A DNA stretch of 34,557 nucleotides from Candidatus Gastranaerophilales bacterium (lineage in GTDB: Bacteria > Cyanobacteriota > Vampirovibrionia > Gastranaerophilales > Gastranaerophilaceae): positions 1 through 34,557 of the forward strand of contig CALUVM010000016.1 in the NCBI GenBank assembly GCA_944324255.1, given 5' to 3'. The notes below the pieces were generated by a model that saw only the letters and a list, made by a program, of their open reading frames with translations, did no database searches and was not told where the DNA came from. The translations under genes were made by a program, and so were the position numbers. Shown piece by piece: positions 2,067-14,678 of the stretch; position 1 is the first letter of the stretch, and each line of letters starts with the position of its first letter.

Positions 2067-2143
2067 TATATAAAGTGACTATGAATGGTGACCAGATAAT
2101 TGAATTAGAACTCTATTCATCGCTCGCTATTCATCAAATAAAA

Positions 2144-12176: not shown

Positions 12177-14258
12177 ATGTCAGAATTAACATTAGAAAGA
12201 GAATCTTCAACAACTGATTTCGTTGGCGGAAAATGGCAAACAGAAATCAACGTTAGAGATTTTATCCAGAAAAACTATACACCTTATGATGGTGATTCAA
12301 GTTTCTTGGCAGGTCCTACCGAAGCTACAACAAAATTGTGGCAGGAATGCTGCGAACTTTTCAAGAAAGAACGTGAAAACGGCGGTGTTCTTGATATGGA
12401 TACAAAAATTGTTTCTACAATAGTATCTCACGGTGCCGGCTATATTGATAAAGACTTAGAAAAGATTGTAGGTTTACAGACAGACAAACCTCTTAAAAGA
12501 TCTCTTCAACCGTTCGGCGGTATCAGAATGGCTGAAACTTCCTGCAAATCTTATGGCTATGAAGTAGATCCTGAAGTTGTTGAAATCTTTACAAAATACA
12601 GAAAAACTCATAACCAGGGTGTATTTGATGTTTACACTCCGGAAATGAGAGCTGCAAGACATGCTGCTATTCTTACAGGGTTGCCTGATGCTTACGGAAG
12701 AGGTCGTATTATAGGTGACTACAGAAGAGTTGCTCTTTATGGTATTGACAGATTGATTGAAGACAAAAAAGAACAGCATGCTTCAGTTGACGGAGATATG
12801 ACTCCTGATAAAATTCAATTGAAAGAAGAACTTGCTGAACAAATCAGAGCTCTTGAAGAAATGAAAGAACTCGGTCAAATTTACGGTTATGATATTTCTA
12901 AACCGGCTAAGAATGCTAAAGAAGCAGTTCAATGGTTATACTTTGGCTACTTATCAGCTGTAAAAGAACAAAACGGTGCAGCAATGAGCCTTGGCAGAAC
13001 TTCTACATTCCTCGATATCTTTATTGAAAGAGATTTGAAGAATGGTACTTTAACTGAATCAGAAGCTCAAGAATTAATCGACCACTTTATTATGAAGTTA
13101 AGATTGGTTAAGTTTGCAAGAACTCCTGAATACAATTCATTGTTCTCAGGCGACCCTACATGGGTTACTGAATCAATCGGCGGTGTTGGTGTTGACGGTC
13201 GTCATATGGTTACTAAGAACTCTTTCAGATACCTTCACACCCTTGAAAACCTCGGTACAGCTCCTGAACCTAATATGACAGTACTCTGGTCTAAGAGATT
13301 ACCGCACAACTTCAAACAGTATGCAGCTCATATCTCTATTAAAACTTCATCTATCCAATACGAAAACGATGACTTGATGAGAGTAACTCACGGCGACGAT
13401 TATGCAATCGCATGCTGCGTATCTTCAATGGTTGTAGGTAAAGAAATGCAGTTCTTCGGTGCTCGTGCTAACCTTGCTAAATGCTTGCTTTATGCAATCA
13501 ACGGCGGTGTTGACGAAAGATTAAAAACTCAAGTTGGTCCTAAATTCAGACCTATTACTTCTGAATACCTCAACTACGATGAAGTTATCGAAAGATATGA
13601 AGATATGATGGAATGGTTAGCAGGTCTTTATGTTAATACATTGAACTGCATCCACTACATGCACGACAAATACTGCTATGAAAGATCTCAAATGGCTCTC
13701 CATGACAGAGATGTTAAGAGATATTTCGCAACAGGTATTGCAGGTCTTTCAGTTGTTGCTGACTCACTTTCTGCTATTAAATATGCAAAAGTTAAAGCAA
13801 TCAGAGATGAAGACGGTGTTGTAGTTGACTACGAAATTGAAGGTGATTATCCTAAATACGGTAACAACGATGACAGAGTTGATGAAATCGCTGTTCATGT
13901 TGTTAAGAAATTCATGTCTATGATTAGAAAACACTTTACTTACAGAAATTCTATTCCGACAATGTCTATCTTAACAATTACATCAAACGTTGTTTACGGT
14001 AAGAAAACAGGTAATACACCTGACGGAAGAAAACAGGGTGTTCCTTTAGCTCCTGGTGCTAACCCTATGCACGGACGTGATTCACACGGTGCAGTTGCTT
14101 CATTAGCTTCAGTTGCAAAACTTCCGTTTAATGATGCTCAAGACGGTATCTCAAATACATTCTCTATTATCCCTAACGCTTTAGGTAAAGATGATGTATT
14201 TATGGGCGACCTGGATATCCAGCTTGATTGCGGATGCTGCGAAGGAACATGCCAATAA
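12177..14258 (+). CDS. pflB: Pyruvate formate-lyase catalytic body without glycyl-radical domain (split PFL)
   Basis: PFL converts pyruvate and CoA to acetyl-CoA and formate by glycyl-radical chemistry. This 693-aa protein matches PFL from the N-terminus through [14 protein letters not shown], including the adjacent active-site cysteines Cys413-Cys414 (AIACCVSSM) and the FGGIRMAE and GRIIGDYRR substrate-region motifs. It then diverges into a short tail with four cysteines (DCGCCEGTC) and stops. The C-terminal domain with the radical glycine, about 80 residues in E. coli PFL (about 760 aa), is absent and is instead encoded by the separate gene at 14382. Alone this subunit cannot hold the radical. 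SD AAGGAG; strong codon usage like the ribosomal genes suggests high expression. The PFL-activating enzyme is not in the window. Confidence 0.93.
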
Positions 14259-14261
14259 AAA

Positions 14262-14337
14262 GTGAATAGGTGAATAAGTGATTAAGTGACTAAGAAGTTT
14301 AAAACTCAGTCACTTAGTCACCCGCTCACTCAGTCAC
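14262..14337. repeat. Inverted arrays of 8-bp repeats
   Basis: Four direct 8-mers run from 14262 (GTGAATAG, GTGAATAA, GTGATTAA, GTGACTAA). After a 12-nt A/T-rich centre containing the dyad AGTTTAAAACT, four more lie on the opposite strand from 14306 (TCAGTCAC, TTAGTCAC, CCGCTCAC, TCAGTCAC). The consensus is GTGANTAA. As RNA it would form a long imperfect hairpin. It begins 3 nt after the pflB stop and ends 44 nt before the glycyl-radical gene. Confidence 0.9.
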
Positions 14338-14381
14338 CTTTTAAGAGTTAAGAGAATATAAAACATAGAAAGGCGATAAAA

Positions 14382-14621
14382 ATGACTACTCAACAAGAAG
14401 AAAATTTAATAAATCTTTTAGACGGTTATGTTGAAAAAGGCGGTCACCATTTGAACGTTAACGTTTTCAACAGAGAAACATTACTTGATGCACAGGCTCA
14501 CCCTGAAAAATATCCTCAACTTACAGTTAGAGTTTCAGGCTATGCCGTAAACTTCATTAAATTAACTAAAGAACAACAAGATGATGTTATTTCAAGAACA
14601 TTCCATGCTTCTTTAGGTTAA
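14382..14621 (+). CDS. Stand-alone glycyl-radical domain of pyruvate formate-lyase
   Basis: The 79-aa protein corresponds to the missing C-terminus of the upstream PFL. It runs from [17 protein letters not shown] through the [18 protein letters not shown] radical loop, where Gly53 is the expected radical site, to [15 protein letters not shown]. It resembles GrcA (YfiD), the spare part that rescues oxygen-cleaved PFL in E. coli, but here the main enzyme has no glycine of its own, so this subunit should be obligatory. The ATG has its own leader with AAAGGCG about 6 nt upstream. It is probably cotranscribed with pflB across the repeat hairpin. A strong terminator follows. Confidence 0.93.
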
Positions 14622-14640: not shown

Positions 14641-14678
14641 AACAAAGAGGCGGCGGTTTTAACCGCCGCCTCTTTGTT
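14641..14678. terminator. Bidirectional terminator between PFL and nitroreductase
   Basis: A perfect, GC-rich inverted repeat of up to 18 bp (AACAAAGAGGCGGCGGTT and its complement) is flanked by A and T runs, between the convergent PFL small-subunit and nitroreductase genes. It can serve both. Confidence 0.93.

Follow-up and report, generated by a model that had tools for sequence, protein, structure and literature searches.

The S23/IVP gene, whose product is a four-helix-bundle protein, has so far been known mainly from insertions in ribosomal RNA. As described for these rRNA IVSs, complementary ends form a terminal stem around the IVP ORF and take the place of a small hairpin loop; the IVSs are sporadic, are thought to be horizontally acquired and are excised by RNase III, and the function of IVP/S23 proteins is given as unknown (PMC4990558). 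Short tandem words are described from other settings. The cyanobacterial STRRs consist of hairpin-capable 7-bp tandem units in intergenic or intercistronic positions, for example, between hupS and hupL, with a function described as unknown (PMC2670836). The TAACTGA heptamers of Beggiatoaceae, cyanobacteria and Bacteroidetes are dispersed, intergenic, patchy and presumably horizontally spread, and "no mechanism is evident" (PMC4679880). Cyanobacterial heptamer repeats are presented in these two sources as having no known function or origin (PMC2670836, PMC4679880), and the main text of the TAACTGA paper does not mention S23 (PMC4679880).

The array considered here lies in the window, that is, the whole 34,557-nt stretch of Candidatus Gastranaerophilales DNA that was analyzed (contig CALUVM010000016.1), between the two genes of a split PFL. 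Probably, it is an ORF-less member of a family of IVP elements, located in the spacer of an existing operon and predicted to form a hairpin in the mRNA. The Gastranaerophilales elements differ from the rRNA IVSs in that they reside in mRNA spacers of protein operons, have arms built of tandem words and include many ORF-less copies; their processing is proposed by analogy. At the PFL copy, the complementary ends are predicted to form a stem, the location is an mRNA spacer rather than rRNA, and there is no IVP/S23 ORF inside, unlike in the groES-groEL copy that this genome also has. A further likeness concerns the site: IVSs replace small hairpin loops, and in five sister species a simple hairpin occupies the position at which others carry the PFL array. 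Like the STRRs, the arrays are multicopy intergenic tandem repeats with a unit of about 7 bp (8 in this array and 7 in those of sisters); unlike the STRRs, they consist mostly of 8-bp words, occur in a non-photosynthetic order and are linked to IVP genes. Because the host, judging from its nearest named relatives, belongs to Gastranaerophilales rather than to the (heterocystous) cyanobacteria, and because the PFL words differ from those that we take to be the described STRR words, the PFL array is termed here STRR-like and not an STRR. In contrast to the array family, the TAACTGA repeats are direct and have one main word. The short ORF-less copies with terminal inverted repeats that are dispersed in the genome of one sister species (G044) resemble MITEs, although their terminal inverted repeats are tandem-word arrays, no target duplication was seen and no transposase was found.

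The inverted array and its dispersed relatives

The stop codon of the upstream PFL gene occupies positions 14256-14258, and the array begins 3 nt later, spanning 14262-14337 (76 bp; Table 1). The direct octamers on the plus strand are GTGAATAG (14262), GTGAATAA (14270), GTGATTAA (14278) and GTGACTAA (14286); they are followed by the centre AGTTTAAAACT (14296-14306) and by inverted octamers, which are, listed outwards from the centre as minus-strand sequence, GTGACTGA, GTGACTAA, GTGAGCGG and GTGACTGA. This is the arrangement reported in a preliminary description of the window, namely, four direct octamers facing four inverted ones immediately past the stop codon. Period 8 was detected by TRF in both arms, and the strict word GTGANTAA matches three of the four direct units and one of the four inverted units. 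Single GTGANTAA octamers are not enriched across the window (5 observed against 5.6 expected by chance); it is the ordered tandem and inverted layout, not the single octamers, that exceeds chance. The predicted folding of the spacer is strong (z = -5.8), and none of 200 shuffles of the 151 nt at 14250-14400 reached the native folding strength. The array was not flagged as an intrinsic terminator, as it does not combine a GC-rich stem with a T run, and a terminator reading of it is unsupported; a terminator-like site instead follows grcA3. Rfam matches in the whole window are limited to two tRNAs. The contig starts with two 124-bp tandem copies (positions 1-248) that are 99% alike and adjoin a tRNA.

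Table 1. Coordinates of the PFL array, its neighbours and the related array in the rpsK-rpsD spacer
Feature	Positions	Strand	Basis or remark
Decayed inverted array of 7-bp type, rpsK-rpsD spacer	2074..2135		intact array in many sisters
PFL large subunit, 693 aa	12177..14258	+	TIGR01255 positions 5-663 of 744, without the glycyl-radical C-terminus
Left arm, four direct octamers GTGANTRA	14262..14293	+	sequence, TRF
AT-rich centre, loop region of the predicted hairpin	14294..14305		sequence, folding
Right arm, four inverted octamers	14306..14337	-	sequence, TRF
GrcA3 glycyl-radical subunit, 79 aa	14382..14621	+	NF038360, 162.9 bits, cut-off 158
GC-rich terminator-like hairpin after the second gene (grcA3)	14641..14678		terminator search

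The octamer pattern has 142 matches in the genome of the window (the reversed pattern also matches the array and so does not provide a valid control). Within the examined parts of this genome, these matches form 36 clusters of at least three octamers, none of which lies inside an ORF of at least 80 aa; the neighbouring genes are found in all orientations. Most of these arrays are one-directional and ORF-less, and the clean layout of four plus-strand units followed by four minus-strand units (++++----) belongs to the PFL array alone. Among the 65 genomes of the genus, arrays of GTGANTRA were found in 44, of GTGATCAA in 10 and of GTTTAGAA in 22; for the latter two words, the reversed-pattern controls yielded zero. 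A count of this kind, genome-wide and in sister genomes, had been proposed in the preliminary description, and the contention made there that the array is not ordinary spacer DNA is borne out, given that its word family recurs at all these clusters and other words recur across the genus. A single species-wide word dialect is excluded because genomes carry several words. A G-rich hairpin repeat (CCCCTCCCCTGATTGGGGAGGGTTAGGGTGGGG) alternates with octamer arrays at many sites of the genome and near contig ends (L043, L045, L046, L055, L058, L060).

The degenerate relative of the array that had been noted in the rpsK-rpsD spacer is real: most sisters in the array group have a clear inverted array of 7-8 bp words in this spacer. 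Several other genomes have no array there, with spacers of 75-89 nt. Between the decayed array and rpsD, positions 2143-2188 comprise a strongly conserved, structured-looking stretch (GCGGGGGCTTGC..GCCAAAAAGTAAACCATAGATGCCCCGC) that is found in complete rpsK-rpsD spacers; it has no Rfam match and is a candidate S4-type leader.

IVP genes between tandem-word arms

The domain PF05635 was detected in 31 of the 65 genomes of the genus (30 above the cut-off) and in 84 of the 286 genomes of the order (65 above the cut-off). The sole IVP gene in the genome of the window (125 bits) is located between groES and groEL and is flanked by two facing GTGANTRA arrays about 390 bp apart; in the RNA of this element, a long terminal stem is predicted around the ORF (z -3.3). 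Altogether, 91 IVP loci were analyzed, leaving aside some matches above the cut-off, including those in G107, G194 and G238 and fragments in G049 and G112, as well as weak matches below it. Under one uniform rule, strong inverted arms were identified at 79 of the 91 loci (79 of the 90 with complete flanks), whereas the rule picked out 1 of 65 other ORFs from these loci and 2 of 910 shuffles; of the 12 loci below the threshold, several nevertheless have word arrays that are visible by eye. The left arm matches itself best at a lag of 8 in 44 elements, 7 in 29 and 9 in 6. At most of the IVP loci of the genus, the arms start within about 15 nt of the start and stop codons. In elements located before korB-like genes (L313, L314, L274), the left array starts at or just after the stop codon of the preceding gene, and the reading frame of IVP seems to open inside this array.

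Across the 79 armed elements, IVP identity correlates with word similarity (Mantel r (Spearman) 0.46, reached in 0 of 2000 permutations). Nearly all pairs with more than 80% IVP identity have a common word, and 12 pairs of different IVPs from the same genome have unlike words. By these sequence comparisons, words go with IVP subtypes rather than with genomes, and the arms and the gene thus behave as one unit. No IVP was found in viral contigs.

The IVP gene is co-directional with both neighbours at 85 of the 91 loci, with four loci having a divergent upstream neighbour and two lacking a readable downstream neighbour. By flanking motifs, 29 sites lie before groEL and 21 before nusA, followed by those before cysE-, rmlB-, korB- and rmlD-like genes (7, 5, 4 and 4, respectively); the names of the neighbours rest on the reading of motifs, except for groES and groEL, which were assigned by Pfam in the genome of the window. 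The same spacer is occupied by different IVP subtypes in different species. At the groEL site, IVP identity is below 0.7 in 182 of the 242 pairs in which GroEL identity is at least 0.95, and G042 and G119, which belong to different genera, have GroEL identity of 0.92 and IVP identity of 0.95. At the sequence level, these identities are consistent with a site at which elements have been replaced or transferred repeatedly; for some of the pairs, rapid divergence of IVP in place may be the explanation. The 30 groES-groEL spacers include 19 with an IVP gene (442-549 nt), 9 that are empty (11-35 nt) and 2 of intermediate length (124 and 137 nt), of which the 137-nt one holds an inverted ORF-less array. 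Likewise, G008 has an IVP element in the fliP-fliQ spacer, in which the genome of the window has an ORF-less array.

Origin and possible role of the PFL array

The near-identical dispersed copies with terminal inverted repeats come from the sister species G044. In G044, the ordered 33-nt array GTGATCAA-GTGACCAA-GTGATCAG-GTGATCAAG is exact at 8 of the 10 examined loci and has at most two mismatches at the remaining two. In three copies of about 143 bp, this array forms the terminal inverted repeats (one copy minus one octamer); these copies have their interior in common and part from the flanking sequence at the array ends, with no target-site duplication visible; thus, the ORF-less array-ended copies look mobile. 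In G036, the left arm of the PFL array is nearly equal to the left end of the G050 IVP element, and the likeness extends into the first IVP codons, the kind of match that a copy with an internal deletion would show. Across 16 genomes (spacers shorter than 100 nt or with z > -3 were left out, as were G004, G007 and G064), the PFL arms are more similar to the IVP arms of the same genome (mean 0.59) than to those of other genomes (0.43), a difference reached in 0 of 5000 permutations, which, however, overstates independence because related genomes inherit words in common. The IVP element of the same genome ranks first or second for the PFL arms in 11 of the 16 genomes; in the other five (G035, G036, G044, G048, G049), the PFL word is unlike the IVP word of the same genome, so the parent element need not be present.

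The Gastranaerophilales harbor a family of small elements, both ends of which are inverted arrays of a 7-8 bp word, with one sense-oriented IVP/S23 (PF05635) gene between the arms of full-length members. These elements occupy intergenic spacers, the IVP-bearing ones in sense within operons. We propose that the 76-bp PFL copy, ORF-less and in this respect MITE-like, belongs to this family; it would derive from an IVP element and would have entered the spacer between an already separate large-subunit gene and grcA3. In the PFL mRNA, the two arms are predicted to pair as a long imperfect hairpin, which, by analogy with the 23S rRNA IVSs, could be cut by RNase III (the gene for which is present in this genome) or could otherwise separate the fates of the two cistrons, and which may affect the ratio of the PFL subunits.

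The PFL junctions of the genus, 54 of which are readable, were sorted according to the large-subunit tail rather than by a tree. Where this tail is CCEGTCQ or TCGC, a spacer hairpin is predicted in 26 of 26 genomes (z -2.5 to -8.0), comprising 19 inverted arrays of 7-8 bp words, 5 short simple hairpins and 2 other hairpins; among the other 28 junctions, z is -3 or lower in 5. The array words vary among sisters and include GTGANTAA, GTGAATA, GTGAAGA, GTGAATCG, GTGATCAA and GTTTAGAA. Within word groups, no covariation of the stem was detected (22 of 25 pairs are invariant for the 8-mers and 25 of 25 for the 7-mers, with no two-sided change); the stem being nearly invariant, covariation does not lend support to an RNA hairpin there. 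An orphan, second grcA3-like gene was detected in the genome of the window (L146, G000:C6:30731-30961) and in part of the set L103, L105, L106, L108, L109, L111 and L117-L133. In many genomes, it is preceded by a promoter resembling TATAAT and by a conserved TTGTTGTATAAACAACAGAAATGTTGT palindrome, and it is found mostly in genomes that have the pfl spacer hairpin. In 18 genomes of the genus (L074, L076, L081, L087, L088, L091-L094 and others), the small PFL subunit is extended at its C-terminus by about 50-65 aa, to 128-145 aa overall, and the spacers are mostly short and array-free.

The location of the array at the junction of the PFL genes led the preliminary description to suggest that it may be the insertion that broke a formerly intact pfl gene, a scenario to which we assign virtually no probability. 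The large subunit stops at position 663 of the 744 of the formate C-acetyltransferase model TIGR01255 and is followed by GrcA3, so that the glycyl-radical domain is a separate subunit; with a start of its own, this second gene codes for the C-terminal domain that the large subunit lacks. Of the 65 genomes of the genus, 62 contain a match to the small subunit, and a separate small ORF lies downstream in 76 of the 80 named relatives of the large subunit, usually without an array (among the remaining four, three contigs end too early and one has no small ORF that could be found). These relatives come from Gastranaerophilales, many Clostridia, Atopobiaceae and a spirochaete, the split ones being mostly from Clostridia, and in 18 relatives the spacer between the two subunit genes measures just 4-36 nt. 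The split is thus far older and wider than the array, which is not its cause, and split relatives without arrays rule out a gene-splitting insertion. As grounds for abandoning its reading, the preliminary description had named absence of the array from other split-PFL genomes together with the lack of other copies in this genome; many split-PFL genomes indeed lack the array, but copies abound, and the combination is uninformative. Growth of the array in place, with a small spacer hairpin acquiring tandem units by slippage and the arms being matched by template switching, would require no insertion. Tandem units of 7-8 bp are prone to slippage, the spacers of five relatives (G031, G034, G058, G060, G064) hold at this site a simple hairpin that is perfect or nearly so, and the flanks of G031 and G032 agree on both sides of the spacer element. 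Nevertheless, this route appears unlikely: the words are common genome-wide and track the IVP subtype, ordered multi-word arrays are copied exactly into unrelated sites, and the two arms of IVP elements often keep an identical word order.

A palindromic repeat of the REP/RAYT type, mobilized by a Y1 transposase, would also be short and dispersed, and Y1 genes were found in 3 of the 8 genomes searched; there are, however, no Y1 matches in the genome of the window or in G041, G053, G040 and G034, the array consists of tandem words and not of a single REP palindrome, and the gene actually located between the arms is IVP, making this derivation very improbable. IVP is not known to have a nuclease fold. 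Copying aided by a reverse transcriptase, with IVP as an Avd-like partner, was considered in view of weak Avd/bAvd matches seen for IVP and rejected, as no RVT_1 was found in 7 of the 8 genomes searched, including that of the window. Selection might keep the hairpin, whatever its origin, as a device that tunes the ratio of the large subunit to GrcA3 through mRNA processing or stabilization; tuning of the subunit ratio by a hairpin was also raised in the preliminary description, and we regard it as possible, if on the unlikely side. It would accord with the contrast between the CCEGTCQ/TCGC-tail genomes and the other junctions, and an effect on transcript stability has been suggested for the 7-bp-repeat hairpins between hupS and hupL in cyanobacteria (PMC2670836). 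Against it, elements of this kind form hairpins anyway, the members of the tail group are related, and they also carry the orphan grcA3-like gene, such that the coupling of PFL and GrcA3 may simply be relaxed. The interpretation of the PFL array as an ORF-less IVP-family element is the one that we prefer.

Many of the clostridial split PFLs (L164-L193 and others) have 210-350 nt between the large- and small-subunit genes. These spacers apparently hold a further small ORF with a cysteine-rich end (for example, GACCQP by eye), so PFL may be three-part in these bacteria.

Possible cyanobacterial relatives and wider reading

Inverted arrays of 7-8 bp words above shuffles are present at 14 of 16 S23 genes of cyanobacterial plasmids, with words such as TAGGGAG, AACAGGG, GGGTGTA and AGTCAGG; the two genes among the 16 without such arrays are those of Nostoc HK-01 and a broken Calothrix gene. 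This test covered 16 of the 20 matches listed (32 records in total), with H19 tested separately and H11, H17 and H20 left out. One Gemmatirosa plasmid also has inverted word arrays. In 100 kb of two Nostoc plasmids, there are 14 arrays, all with period 7 or 8 and none with period 5, 6, 9 or 10, including some facing ORF-less pairs. These sequence patterns suggest that the cyanobacterial STRRs are ORF-less relatives of the IVP-element class.

Taken more broadly, the data would fit a single class of mobile elements in which IVP/S23 partners tandem arrays of 7-8 bp words, with a subtype-specific word, as the element ends; the elements would home, in the sense orientation, to the same operon spacers and to structured RNAs, and the STRRs, perhaps also the TAACTGA repeats, would be ORF-less derivatives, the PFL array among them. 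We put the chances of this generalization at about even. Among the papers listed in searches of the open-access literature, none, judging by titles and abstracts, pairs IVP genes with tandem-word arrays, which is weak evidence because most subscription papers are outside this literature. Given the tight pairing of subtype and word, the functions of IVP and of the heptamers become accessible to experiment, the prediction being that each IVP binds the array of its own word, in RNA or DNA form. If the generalization is correct, the IVSs would turn from rRNA curiosities into a general class of operon-spacer elements, and IVS-type elements in operon spacers may determine the ratios among the cistrons of groESL, rimP-nusA or pfl mRNAs.

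Some of the IVP genes on cyanobacterial plasmids lie inside CRISPR operons (L406, L410, L417), namely, between cas6 and cas4 in Anabaena 90 and Pseudanabaena galeata, and between cas10 and a Cmr3-family gene in Picosynechococcus.
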